From the NCBI RefSeq assembly GCF_019904235.1, contig NZ_CP063202.1:2356001-2420000 (forward strand): DNA of 64,000 nucleotides, read 5' to 3'. The notes beneath the pieces are model-generated. The model was not told the origin of the DNA and searched no databases. It saw only the letters and a program-made list of their open reading frames with translations. Position numbers and translations under genes: made by a program. Of this stretch, positions 11,345 through 17,817 are shown piece by piece. This stretch comes from Erythrobacter sp. SCSIO 43205. Lineage in GTDB: Bacteria > Pseudomonadota > Alphaproteobacteria > Sphingomonadales > Sphingomonadaceae. Every line of letters starts with the position of its first letter. Position 1 is the first letter of the stretch.

Positions 11345-11713
11345 TTAGCTCTTAGGAGCGTTTTCCCGACGTTCCGCGATACGCGCACGCTTACCGGTGC
11401 GGCCACGCAGATAGTAGAGCTTCGCACGGCGCACAACGCCGCGACGCACCACGGTGATGCTGTCGACGATTGGCGCATAGAGTGGGAACACACGCTCCAC
11501 ACCTTCGCCAAAGCTCATTTTGCGAACAGTGAAGTTCGAGCCCATGCCGCGGTTCGAACGGGCAATGACTACGCCTTCAAAGTTCTGAATACGCTCACGT
11601 TGGCCTTCGACAACCTTCACGCCAACACGAACGGTGTCGCCTGCGCGAAAGTTTGGAATTTCTTTTGTAACCTTGCTGATTTCTTCAGCTTCGATTTGCT
11701 GGATCAGGTTCAC
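11345..11713 (-). CDS. rplS: 50S ribosomal protein L19
   Basis: The 122-residue protein reads (V/M)[14 protein letters not shown], then [31 protein letters not shown], and [15 protein letters not shown], all L19 hallmarks. L19 sits at the 30S-50S interface. The start is a GTG at 11713 that overlaps the trmD stop TGA (GTGA); the longer in-frame reading from 11785 lies inside trmD and lacks homology. It is the last gene of the cluster and is followed by a strong terminator. Confidence 0.96.
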
Positions 11714-12555
11714 TGGTCCGTATCCTTTTTCTTTTGCCGCGCGCCAGAGGCAGACTGGACCGGATCGCCACAATAGCGTTCCCACAAGTCCGGCCTGCGT
11801 AACCGAGTGATCTCTTGCGCCTTTGCTTCACGCCAAGCCGCAATCTTCGCATGATCCCCCGATCGCAGCACTTCGGGGATCGTGCGCCCTTCCCATTCGT
11901 AAGGTCGGGTATAGTGCGGATACTCAAGAAGGCCGTCCTCGAACGACTCTTCAGTCCCACTAGAAGCCGCGCCCATTACGCCGGGAAGCAGCCGAATGCA
12001 AGCATCAAGTATGGTGATCGCGGCTGTTTCCCCGCCTGAGAGAACGATGTCGGCAAGGCAAACCTCTTCGATTTGCGGGCGAGCCTCGAACAGGCGCTCG
12101 TCAAAGCCCTCAAACCGTCCGCACAGGATGGTGACGCCGGGGCCACTGGCGATCTCGCGAATGCGGTCTTGCGTGATGGGTTTGCCGCGCGGGGTCATGG
12201 CGAGGATGGGCACAGGAACATCCTCCCCCACTGGGGGAGGTGGCCGCCGCAGGCGGTCGGAGGGGGCGCTTGTCTCGCCCTGCCCCTCCACCCCGCTCCG
12301 CGCGGTCCCCCTCCCCATGCTGGGGAGGACTGAATCCAAAGCCCGCGCCATCACATCGCACCTTAGCACCATCCCCGCCCCGCCGCCTGCAGGCGTATCG
12401 TCAACGGTTCGGTGCTTATCCGTGGTAAAGTCGCGCGGGTTGACCGTAGCGCAAGACCAATCGCCGCGCTCAAGCGCCCTACCCGCAAGGCTCGCGCCAA
12501 GGGGACCGGGGAACATCTCTGGGTAGAGCGTGAGGATGGTTGCGGCGAAGGTCAT
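11710..12555 (-). CDS. trmD: tRNA (guanine-N1)-methyltransferase with in-frame palindromic insertion
   Basis: The 281-residue protein has the TrmD knot signatures [29 protein letters not shown] and RLLPGVMG, followed by the C-terminal domain [16 protein letters not shown]. It methylates G37 of tRNAs read at CNN codons, preventing +1 frameshifting. E. coli TrmD has 255 residues. Residues about 77-113, rich in Pro, Arg and Gly, are extra and are encoded by a palindromic repeat that lies in frame at about 12217-12330, between the N-terminal SAM region and the trefoil knot. The gene should still work, since all motifs are kept. Confidence 0.95.
12221..12328. repeat. Palindromic repeat, family C, inserted in trmD
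   Basis: Two hairpins, CCTCCCCCactGGGGGAGG at about 12222-12240 and CTCCCCatgctGGGGAG at about 12311-12327, bound a GC-rich core. The same kind of layout (hairpin, G/C-rich core, hairpin) recurs between trpA and accD at 39214-39333. Here the element is translated. Confidence 0.8.
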
Positions 12556-15419: not shown

Positions 15420-16889
15420 TTATTTCTTTTTGGGACCGCCAAGGCCGGGAAGACCGGGTGGGAGCCCGCCGCTGGGACCGCCCATGCCGGGTAGGCCACC
15501 GGGCATTGATCCGCCCATGCCAGGGGGCATCCCGCCGCCACCAAACATGGCAGCAAGGCTTTTCAGGCCGCCCATTTTCTTCAATTGCTTCATCGCCTTG
15601 GACATTTCCTGATGCATTTTCAGGAGCTTGTTCACGGTCTGAACATCTGTACCGGAACCGGCGGCGACACGCTTCTTGCGCTTGGCGTTCATCAAATTGG
15701 GATTGGCGCGTTCTTTGGGCGTCATCGAACCGATAATCGCGTCCATATGAACCAGCACTTTGTCGTCCATGTTGGATGCAGCAAGCGCTTGCTTCGCCTT
15801 CTTCATGCCAGGCATCATGCCCGCAAGCATCCCGAGGCCACCCATATTCTGCATTTGCTTCAATTGCATACGCAGATCGTTGAGGTCGAATTTGCCCTTC
15901 TCGAAGTTTTCAGCGAGCTTTGCCGCCTCTTCCTCTTTGATGGTCGCTGCCGCCTTTTCAACAAGGCTGACAACATCGCCCATGCCGAGGATACGGTCGG
16001 CAACGGAAGCGGGGCGGAATGTCTCAATGGCGTCGAGCTTTTCGCCCGTACCTGCAAATTTGATCGGCTTGCCCGTGACCGCGCGCATCGATAGCGCAGC
16101 ACCGCCTCTGGCATCGCCGTCCATACGGGTAAGCACAACGCCGGTAAGCGGTACTTCACCCGAAAAGCTTTGCGCGACATTCACCGCGTCCTGACCGGTG
16201 AGGCTATCGACAACAAGGAGCACTTCGGTAGGCGCAGAAACCTGCGATACGGCCTTCATTTCGGCCATCAAAGCTTCGTCGACGTGCAAGCGGCCTGCGG
16301 TGTCGAGCAGGAGAACGTCGAAGTTTTGAAGCTTTGCCGCGCCCATTGCGCGCCGCGCGATATCGACCGGCTGTTGCCCTTCAATAATCGGCAGGGTCGC
16401 GACATCGACCTGTTCGCCCAAAACCTTGAGCTGTTCCTGCGCCGCCGGACGGTTCACGTCCAGGGACGCCATCATGGCTTTCTTGCCGTGGCGCTCGCGG
16501 ATCAGCTTGCCAAGCTTTGCAGTGGTCGTGGTTTTACCGGAGCCCTGAAGACCCACCATCATAATCACAACCGGCGGCGTGGCGTTGAAGTTTAATTCTT
16601 CGCCAGCACCAACTTCGTCGCCCTCGCCTGTGAGCATGGCGACAAGTTCGTCATGGACGATCTTGACGACTTGCTGGCCCGGTGTGACCGATTTGAGGAC
16701 GTCTTGACCAACGGCCTTCTCTGTTACCGCATCAATAAACCGGCGCGCAACGGGAAGGGCGACGTCGGCTTCGAGCAATGCCACGCGCACCTCGCGCATC
16801 GCATCGCGAACGTCTTGCTCTTTGAGGCTGCCGCGGCCTTTAAGTTTATCGAATACCCCGCCAAGACGGTCGGACAAGTTGTCAAACAT
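15420..16889 (-). CDS. ffh: Signal recognition particle protein Ffh (SRP54)
   Basis: The 489-residue protein has the N domain (1-90), the GTPase G domain with P-loop MVGLQGSGKTTTTAKLG, LLDTAGRLHVDEALM and TRMDGDARGGAALS, and the M domain with a Met/Gly-rich tail (about 430-489, MPPGMGGSMPGG...) ending PKKK. With the 4.5S RNA it binds signal sequences on the ribosome and delivers them to FtsY. The start ATG at 16889 follows GGGGGAGG by eight bases. A second copy of its first 20 codons lies immediately upstream, and the stop of that frame overlaps the ffh start. Confidence 0.97.
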   Translation of the reverse strand: MFDNLSDRLGGVFDKLKGRGSLKEQDVRDAMREVRVALLEADVALPVARRFIDAVTEKAVGQDVLKSVTPGQQVVKIVHDELVAMLTGEGDEVGAGEELNFNATPPVVIMMVGLQGSGKTTTTAKLGKLIRERHGKKAMMASLDVNRPAAQEQLKVLGEQVDVATLPIIEGQQPVDIARRAMGAAKLQNFDVLLLDTAGRLHVDEALMAEMKAVSQVSAPTEVLLVVDSLTGQDAVNVAQSFSGEVPLTGVVLTRMDGDARGGAALSMRAVTGKPIKFAGTGEKLDAIETFRPASVADRILGMGDVVSLVEKAAATIKEEEAAKLAENFEKGKFDLNDLRMQLKQMQNMGGLGMLAGMMPGMKKAKQALAASNMDDKVLVHMDAIIGSMTPKERANPNLMNAKRKKRVAAGSGTDVQTVNKLLKMHQEMSKAMKQLKKMGGLKSLAAMFGGGGMPPGMGGSMPGGLPGMGGPSGGLPPGLPGLGGPKKK

Positions 16890-17037
16890 AGTTCACGCCT
16901 CCCCCGTTGTTGGCCGCTAATTCTTGGTAGTCGCGATGCCGAACCGAAAAAGTGGTATCCATTTTTTCTGGCATCACTCCGCGACCTTTGAGCTTGTCAA
17001 AGACGCCGCCTAAGCGATCGGACAGATTGTCAAACAT
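16882..17037 (-). CDS. 51-codon upstream frame duplicating the first 20 codons of ffh
   Basis: The ATG at 17037, nine bases after GAGGAG, opens a frame whose first 20 residues are identical to the Ffh N-terminus, although 13 of the 20 codons use a different synonym. The match stops at codon 20, where a palindromic repeat (16935-16975) enters; the rest (31 residues) has no homology. Its TGA lies seven bases into ffh (16884-16882), so translation of the two is probably coupled. It may be a remnant left by recombination between two ffh alleles, or a regulatory leader peptide. Confidence 0.6.
   Translation of the reverse strand: MFDNLSDRLGGVFDKLKGRGVMPEKMDTTFSVRHRDYQELAANNGGGVNYV
16935..16975. 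repeat. Short palindromic repeat upstream of ffh
   Basis: GATGCC at 16935-16940 pairs with GGCATC at 16970-16975, and the core GAAAAAGTGG / CCATTTTTTC (16946-16968) forms a near-perfect inner hairpin around TAT. The shape resembles common short alphaproteobacterial palindromes. It separates the duplicated ffh start from the real one. Confidence 0.75.
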
Positions 17038-17082
17038 CTTCAACTACTCCTCACAAGACCACATGAGCCCTGATAAACGCGA

Positions 17083-17115
17083 AAAACGCCGGCGGACGAA
17101 ACCTCGTCGGCCAGC
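17083..17115 (-). terminator. Probable terminator downstream of tRNA-Ala
   Basis: Reading leftward, a 12-base arm (about 17115-17104) pairs with 17099-17088 with one mismatch and one G-T pair, followed by GTTTTTC. It lies between tRNA-Ala and ffh, both leftward, and would end the tRNA transcript or anything from the palindromic region at 17192-17272. Confidence 0.55.
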
Positions 17116-17191
17116 GTGCGGAAATCCTCGACAGATAACCGGCTTTTTTAGTCTAACGCCATCGGCTTGGATTTTTCGACTGGGTGGAGGC

Positions 17192-17272
17192 GAAAATTGT
17201 GGCTTTTCGTGACCCGGAGCGCAGCGATCTTAAGGATCGTGAGCACCGGAAGCGCGAAAACCCGCAATTTGC
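17192..17272. repeat. 81-base imperfect palindrome
   Basis: The sequence is symmetric about position 17232: CGATC/GATCG around TTAAG in the centre, CCGG arms further out, and outer arms GAAAATTGTGGCTTTTC (17192-17208) against GAAAACCCGCAATTTGC (17256-17272, read inverted) with three to four mismatches. It could fold as one long hairpin in RNA from either strand. It lies between the tRNA-Ala 3' end and the terminator at 17083. Confidence 0.7.
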
Positions 17273-17301
17273 AGCCCGCCCAGGCGGAAAAGACAAGTCG
17301 A

Positions 17302-17377
17302 TGGTGGAGCCTAGCGGGATCGAACCGCTGACCTCAACACTGCCAGTGTTGCGCTCTCCCAGCTGAGCTAAGGCCCC
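17302..17377 (-). tRNA. tRNA-Ala (anticodon GGC)
   Basis: The cloverleaf reads GGGGCCT acceptor, D-arm GCTCAGCTGGGAGAGC, anticodon arm CAACA-CTGGCAG-TGTTG with anticodon GGC, T-arm with GGTTCGATCCC, and 3' AGGCTCC-A. CCA is encoded in the genome (17304-17302). Confidence 0.95.
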
Positions 17378-17438
17378 GTATCATCGTTGTGTTGGCATTG
17401 TTTCAAACGCCATACCCTCGCTTTCACGAGGGAGCGCC

Positions 17439-17467
17439 CCATTAGGACTGCCCCTCGCGAAACGCAA
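17439..17467 (-). promoter_or_regulatory. Candidate promoter of tRNA-Ala
   Basis: On the minus strand TTGCGT (17467-17462) and TAATGG (17444-17439) are 17 bases apart, about 60 bases upstream of the mature tRNA 5' end. Sequence match only. Confidence 0.4.
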
Positions 17468-17475
17468 GAGCAAAA

Positions 17476-17817
17476 TCAGTTATCGTCGTTGTCGTCGTCA
17501 TCTTTCGATGCGGTCACGCCAAGATCGTCGTCGCCACCAAGGTCGACATCGTTATCGGGCGAGTCTTCAGCGTCGTCGATATTTTCGATGTCTTTGAGAT
17601 CATCATCTTCATCATCAGCCGCCAGATCGGTGTCAGCTTCGCCGTTCTTCGCCTTTTCAGGGTCGTCGATCGGAATTGGCTGCTTGGATTTCAGAACAGG
17701 CTCTGGATACCACTGGTGACCGTTCGGGCTTGTCACAGGGTTATCATTGCCAAGATCATAAAAACGCTCGCCCGTTTGCGGGCAGGTGCGCTTTGTTCCC
17801 CATTCGGGTTTAGGCAT
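17476..17817 (-). CDS. TIGR02300 family (FYDLN acid domain) protein
   Basis: The 113-residue protein begins MPKPEWGTKRTCPQTGERFYDLG, the FYDLN signature with a CxxTGxxFYDL pattern. The rest, from about residue 50, is an extreme acidic low-complexity tail (Asp/Glu/Asn, ending DDDDNDDN). The family is common in alphaproteobacteria, is short, and has no known function; the single Cys and the acidic tail might bind metal or basic proteins. The ATG at 17817 is chosen because homologues begin there and not at the in-frame ATG at 17847. Confidence 0.85.
   Translation of the reverse strand: MPKPEWGTKRTCPQTGERFYDLGNDNPVTSPNGHQWYPEPVLKSKQPIPIDDPEKAKNGEADTDLAADDEDDDLKDIENIDDAEDSPDNDVDLGGDDDLGVTASKDDDDNDDN

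Follow-up and report, generated by a model that had tools for sequence, protein, structure and literature searches.

The gene for the signal recognition particle protein Ffh in Erythrobacter sp. SCSIO 43205 (G000 below) is preceded by a second copy of its own first 20 codons, and the question raised by this locus is how such a silently recoded start came to stand in front of the real one and whether it takes part in the translation of ffh. In the window (the whole stretch of DNA that was analysed, 64,000 nucleotides) the upstream copy opens a reading frame on the minus strand, which runs from an ATG at 17037 to a TGA at 16882 and comprises 51 codons and the stop. Codons 1-20 of this frame and those of ffh, which starts at 16889, both encode MFDNLSDRLGGVFDKLKGRG. 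The similarity between the copies stops at 16978 and a palindrome begins directly after it (16977-16933). The downstream gene is an equivalog match to TIGR00959 with a score of 567.6 bits (cutoff 473.2). The original prediction, made from the letters of this stretch, described a 51-codon frame with its own ribosome site, a palindrome after codon 20 and an overlap onto the ffh start, all of which are confirmed in the sequence. From upstream to downstream, the features of the locus are:

17302..17377, minus strand: tRNA-Ala (GGC), the first gene upstream of the ffh leader (ARAGORN; Rfam tRNA model, 61.8 bits)
17079..17126, minus strand: hairpin resembling the ffh motif (cf. RF01793), between tRNA-Ala and the leader (Rfam, 21.6 bits)
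17047..17052, minus strand: ribosome binding site 1, GAGGAG, the ancestral ffh site; similar ones stand before single-copy ffh in relatives
16882..17037, minus strand: putative leader cistron, 51 codons and TGA; a reading frame with related peptides in protein searches
16978..17037, minus strand: copy 1 of ffh codons 1-20; 59 of 60 bases as in the single ffh start of the sister genome G024
16933..16977, minus strand: palindromic insert, a hairpin through which the leader frame reads in frame
16898..16905, minus strand: ribosome binding site 2, GGGGGAGG, within the leader frame and before the real ffh start (-11.3 kcal/mol)
16882..16889, minus strand: 8-base overlap, ATGTTTGA, made up of the ffh ATG (16889-16887) and the leader TGA (16884-16882)
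16830..16889, minus strand: copy 2, which is codons 1-20 of the real ffh and holds 12 of the 13 silent differences
15420..16889, minus strand: ffh, signal recognition particle protein, 489 amino acids (TIGR00959); rpsP and rimM come next

This layout has two features of a coupled leader cistron, namely an upstream frame with a ribosome site and a start, and a stop that overlaps the next start (here by 8 bases). A consensus scan of 16800-17480 for terminator-like sites, as would mark a transcription attenuator, returned none. Judged on its sequence, the upstream frame is probably a leader cistron that is translated and, through the overlap of its stop with the ffh start, coupled to ffh; it would have arisen when part of the ffh start was duplicated around a palindrome.

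When the upstream copy was compared with the whole 3.38-Mb genome, the real ffh start was the only low-E match besides the copy itself (1e-6; next 0.155), so the likeness does not arise by chance. The genome is a single contig at 99.98% completeness and the same layout occurs in four other genomes, so an assembly error is unlikely. A search for a copy of the gene's own start upstream of 401 ORFs of at least 150 amino acids (13 stretches, four of them known cases; spurious overlapping frames included) gave a clear result for four ORFs, all of them ffh (scores 81-113; the next score, 52, belongs to a low-complexity frame). Within the sampled DNA, no gene other than ffh shows this layout.

A frame-blind pattern of two ffh-like starts 105-165 bases apart identified a duplicated ffh start in five of 114 genomes of the genus (G000, G036, G043, G048 and G074); a stricter pattern matched three, and a comparison of ffh leaders covered 90 of the first 100 genomes. 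The leader cistron is absent from the other 109 genomes. An apparent copy in G058 (L092) was discarded as a scaffold artefact, the ffh coding sequence being present there twice around a run of N. On an ffh tree of 37 genomes, several deep nodes of which have low support, the five cases lie on scattered lineages: G000 beside G024, G036 beside G067, G043 beside G006 and G045, G074 among G053 and G056, and G048 next to the G043-G006-G045 group. Four of the five have single-copy sisters (G024; G067; G006/G045; G053/G056).

Scanning public sequences gave 22 matches. Five are duplicated ffh starts, from Erythrobacter sp. MO_005.B18, two uncultured Erythrobacter, one uncultured Altererythrobacter and one Parvularculaceae MAG, and 17 are not; two of the latter are normal ffh genes that matched a second time by chance. 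The scan is not exhaustive: it picked up one contig of the Parvularculaceae MAG but missed contig C25 of that genome, which matched separately, and G528, described below, lies outside the pattern and was found by reading leaders. No duplicated start at a wider spacing (about 164-224) was found in 397 family genomes. A class-wide sample of 385 genomes yielded the window genome alone, implying that the leader is rare outside the Erythrobacter-genus and Parvularculaceae groups.

The two copies in G000 differ at 13 of 20 codons (14 bases) and every change is silent; the 20 identical residues with 13 recoded codons and no replacement that had been described at the outset are therefore correct. The nearest relative in the set, G024, has a single ffh start and was taken as the reference. 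Against this reference, 12 of the 13 differences fall on the real ffh copy and one on the upstream copy, with copy 1 differing from the G024 start at 1 of 60 bases and copy 2 at 13 of 60. Between the two genomes, 161 of the 387 silent codons in codons 21-440 of ffh are different. Under this rate, the single change in the 19 silent codons of copy 1 has a probability of 0.0005 and the 12 changes in the 19 of copy 2 a probability of 0.048. Among 28 single-copy genomes the observed-to-expected ratio of silent change in the first 20 codons is 0.70 (rank 69 of 455 windows along the gene), and among the 14 genomes of the DKLKGRG type it is 0.57 (rank 9 of 455). Nucleotide-level constraint on the first 20 codons was considered as the whole explanation and rejected, the effect being mild and the leader being left unexplained by it. 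From these comparisons we infer that copy 1 resembles a start still in use and copy 2 a start released from that constraint.

The absence of replacements had been taken to mean that the duplicated peptide was under selection. This argument fails, given the side of the pair on which the differences sit relative to the sister, and zero replacements are no proof of selection on an upstream peptide because purifying selection on Ffh itself predicts zero. Nor are replacement-free copies a rule. The copies differ at 14 of 60 bases in G000, 2 of 60 in G036, 1 of 54 in G043, 5 of 48 in G074 and 5 of 54 in G048, and the G074 and G048 pairs carry replacements, one in G074 (D7A, in the real ffh) and two residues in G048.

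The same comparison bears on the account that was originally thought the simplest, namely that the upstream copy is the left end of an older ffh allele, stranded when recombination brought in a divergent ffh. Copy 1 is of the resident type, as this account would have it, and copy 2 is remote from the sister, lying 8 of 60 bases from the nearest of 86 single-copy starts; however, this also means that none of the 86 is a closer donor than 8 of 60 bases. An imported gene should be more diverged from the sister than its neighbours are, and ffh is not: it is about 86% identical between G000 and G024 (alignment from codon 12), and where the surroundings can be matched, the identity is 79-85% (the 79.8% piece takes in ffh). 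Divergence does not shift clearly around the ffh start, with silent changes at 35 of 66 codons in codons 2-70 and at 138 of 340 in codons 71-440 (P=0.077), and a change-point test placed the best break at codon 416 (permutation P 0.032) and none near the start. In G036 and G043, furthermore, the copies are only 2 and 1 bases apart and are of their own lineage. Since ffh is not unusually diverged, allele replacement is left without support, and we regard it as very unlikely. Elsewhere in the window, trmD (11710-12555, minus strand) has an insert that keeps the frame and adds about 30 repeat-like residues immediately ahead of the AMTPRG region; a related insert occupies the corresponding position in trmD of the sister G024.

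Four of the five genus cases have an ATG-to-ATG spacing of 148 and the fifth has one of 133; every spacing is 1 mod 3, and the leader frame is open in all five. By shuffling, a single open frame has a chance of 0.21-0.37, and all five together have one of 0.0018; the inserts are somewhat stop-poor, with 5 of the 10 frames in the two alternative forward phases also open, and the counts would be non-independent if the five share one origin. The insert tails of G000, G036 and G043 are identical to each other at 13-17 of 38 bases, so that descent from one event would mean that the inserts diverged widely without gaining a stop or a frameshift. In nine units from eight genomes, which include the second group described below, the stop ends at +8 relative to the next ATG in eight and at -3 in one, the chance of a stop landing between -10 and +10 being 0.07-0.23 per unit.

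The strength of site 1 ranges from -6.9 to -9.2 kcal/mol in the five cases, and the single-copy genomes have a median of -8.4 (n=86). In four of the five, site 2 falls below site 1 in strength (-5.2, -5.5, -7.7 and -3.4 kcal/mol), and hence ffh may depend on coupling in these four. The window genome reverses the order, with -11.3 kcal/mol for site 2 and -8.8 kcal/mol to the anti-SD for site 1 (GAGGAG, 17052-17047), and because site 2 is the stronger here, ffh could start independently in this genome. The predicted accessibility of start 2 gave no consistent picture. Collectively, the recurrence and the conserved geometry lend support to the second idea of the original prediction, a leader frame tied to ffh translation, with translation and coupling as the predicted steps.

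A second version of the leader, with another insert, was found in 3 of 30 ffh leaders read around a MAG recorded as Parvularculaceae (G114), these being the best 30 loci from 62 genomes searched. G114 has two tandem units of 127 bases, G520 has one (123) and G528 has one (124). The inserts are unlike the Erythrobacter palindrome, although a hairpin is common among them. Three of the units have their stop at +8. In G520 it is at -3; the spacing there is 0 mod 3, and an ordinary stop 3 bases before the ATG preserves the end position. A profile of these leaders matched two proteins, one of them identical to the leader of G528. As the Parvularculaceae group carries a different insert, at least two origins are likely. 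In G528 (L191) there is seemingly a further truncated ffh start and palindrome ahead of the leader, as if amplified and then decayed.

A profile built from the five leaders gave 57 matches among 5.8 billion proteins and a wider profile gave 59. By our count 29 of these are leader peptides, namely P0060 and P0001-P0028, with P0004 from the window itself among them, a set in which broken leaders are under-represented because the protein database holds called ORFs. The other matches look like truncated or joined Ffh (six read). Counted from MFD or MFH, 21 of the 29 leader peptides are exactly 51 residues long, and 26 have a C-terminal V, encoded by the GTT of ATGTTTGA (the exceptions are P0014, P0022 and P0028). 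K25, F30 and A41 are invariant across the 21 peptides of 51 residues. Three longer peptides (72, 72 and 62 amino acids) contain palindrome codons repeated in frame. In P0027 and P0028 the palindrome is read in another frame, P0027 ending in NV and P0028 in S; since the frame of the palindrome is shifted in these two and P0027 still ends in NV, the sequences point to selection on the frame and end position rather than on the palindrome-encoded peptide. The DNA position upstream of ffh was seen for four of the 29, P0002 (G043), P0003 (G036), P0004 (G000) and P0005 (G048), and for the remaining 25 we infer the same place from their two ends. Porphyrobacter sp. MBR-155 (35 contigs) and Erythrobacter MAGs are among the named sources, and the peptides are annotated, where named at all, as 'hypothetical protein'.

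These regularities speak against a neutral scar, in which insertion of a palindrome and a partial duplication left a role-less upstream frame while ffh uses its own new ribosome site. A scar would suit the rarity of the leader (5 of 114), the strong site 2 of the window genome and inserts that are stop-poor (5 of 10 other forward frames open), but it does not predict that 21 of 29 peptides have 51 residues and 26 a terminal V, nor that length changes by whole codons (148-133=15, and the in-frame repeats). The weakness of site 2 in G036, G043 and G048 also counts against it, as does the finding that a second group, whose insert is another one, has much the same end position, and we consider this explanation unlikely.

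It is likewise doubtful that the leader peptide is itself the regulator, a nascent or finished mimic of the Ffh N-terminus that senses the state of SRP or of the ribosome and sets ffh translation. Such a peptide would have to tolerate the reading of its palindrome part in another frame, as in P0027 and P0028, so that this part is not essential; and 109 of the 114 genus genomes manage without the leader, and the scan found no terminator-like site. Consistent with a regulatory peptide are the restriction of the layout to ffh in the DNA sampled, the three residues that are invariant past the copied part in the 21 peptides, and the position of the leader downstream of an ffh-motif-like hairpin.

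A further alternative makes use of the overlap itself. Every +8 unit ends in GTT TGA, preceded in the window genome by an SD-like run, and a +1 slip at GUU UGA would give an N-terminally extended Ffh. The GTT TGA is, however, forced by ATGTTTGA, and G520 has its ordinary stop 3 bases before the ATG. At the RF2 frameshift site the SD-like run is closely spaced, unlike the approximately 10 bases between the run and the GUU at the ffh leader. A frameshift product thus appears extremely improbable.

We return to the coupled leader cistron and to the palindrome within it. The same type of palindrome is also found in the ffh 5' leader of several single-copy genomes, where its core starts 81-88 bases before the ATG at five loci and 133-134 at three, with a second copy in G018 at 149, and in the five leader-cistron genomes it starts 68-78 bases before the real ATG; the search expression behind these distances missed some copies visible in the leader comparison. 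The two palindromes of G018 (L023) stand in tandem in its ffh 5' leader at a distance of about 61 bases, and the start is not duplicated. The alignment of 16 leader palindromes contains 16 pairs, 7 of which have changes on both sides. By eye, the palindromes inside leader cistrons form a subtype distinct from the 5'-leader type, and their sequences favour a common source.

The G000 palindrome is the sole match in its genome at up to 3 mismatches. Pattern matches in 16 genomes were located at ffh in 9 of 10 cases, the tenth being in the rpsO-pnp gap of G076. A covariance model, with 150 of 1065-1416 candidates scored per genome, placed its 11 best matches at ffh (10 genomes) and gave weaker ones elsewhere (next E 1e-7). 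With one strong copy per genome, at ffh, the palindrome was rejected as a dispersed repeat. Nine other weak copies have no exact direct repeats of 14 bases or more flanking them at up to 300 bases. In three genomes including the window's, the rpsO-pnp gap (genes named by eye from translations; L166, L159 and L161) contains weak relatives of the palindrome, and this gap is perhaps a second preferred site of the palindromic element.

Between the tRNA gene and the leader, the hairpin at 17126-17079 scores 21.6 bits with the full RF01793 model, under the gathering score of 35, and so falls short of membership in that family. The hairpin is strongly conserved in most of the 90 leaders, not all of which show it within the 120 bases compared, and its upper stem exhibits a compensatory swap across the genus (GACGA/TCGTC to AACGA/TCGTT). 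The Rfam ffh motif had no match at E<=1 in 10 related loci, and for this reason the RF01793 model may be too narrow for this group.

In the model that we favour, ribosomes would load at site 1 and start at copy 1, the original ribosome site and ATG having been retained. They would read the 51 leader codons, palindrome included, and stop on top of the ffh start, where re-initiation by translational coupling would follow with site 2 assisting. Frame and stop position would be maintained by selection because ffh is essential, and the leader frame because of the proposed coupling. As to origin, an illegitimate event at the palindrome may have joined a palindrome-free start region to a palindrome-bearing leader. 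Such a join is favoured by the similar palindrome-to-ATG distance in both layouts, and homology-facilitated illegitimate recombination is a known route. Later, recombination between the 60-base repeats could have evened out or removed copies. One old event, followed by losses and conversion, is favoured by the insert subtype and length that the cases have in common, and the lineage-specific copy pairs need conversion or repeated gain.

Translationally coupled leader cistrons, with stop and start overlapping in a bacterial mRNA, are of a known kind; the putative one described here is distinguished by being cut from the gene's own start. The ffh leader shares with them a small frame with its own ribosome site that ends on the start of an essential gene, and differs in being a copy of the downstream gene's start together with a palindromic element, its coupling being predicted. 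In sequence, the ffh palindrome may resemble palindromes of the Rhizobiales. Bru-RS and similar palindromes of the Alphaproteobacteria are short stem-loop elements in intergenic gaps (PMC2267715); the ffh palindrome differs in its low copy number and in its presence in the ffh leader of many genomes of the genus. The Rickettsia palindromic elements (RPE) are short palindromes read in frame inside a protein frame (review PMC10969869). The ffh-leader palindrome is likewise read in frame, but it sits in a duplicated start and not inside a gene, and dispersal in many unrelated genes was not observed: it has one strong copy (a tandem pair in one genome), with weaker relatives that are apparently intergenic.

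Meyer et al. 2009 (PMC2704228) described the ffh motif RF01793, a hairpin with a bulge that precedes ffh in Sphingomonadales and may regulate the gene. It would correspond to the hairpin at 17126-17079, which is below the cut-off, and the leader cistron is an additional feature, one of which the available part of Meyer et al. 2009 (PMC2704228) makes no mention. Control of ffh expression was in 2009 not fully understood, and no transcriptional or translational regulation was reported, as far as that part of the paper goes (PMC2704228). In the openly accessible literature, we found nothing on an ffh leader peptide, upstream ORF or start duplication.

The leader defines a small peptide family, mostly of 51 amino acids. 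It also illustrates a way in which a palindromic element could become established where an essential gene begins and leave the cell viable, provided that duplication and reading frame yield a coupled cistron. More tentatively, it is possible that the self-derived leader is a regulated ffh initiation site that controls synthesis of the SRP protein and that probably arose at least twice in the Alphaproteobacteria. A recurrent leader built from the start of ffh itself is a testable handle on the control of ffh expression.
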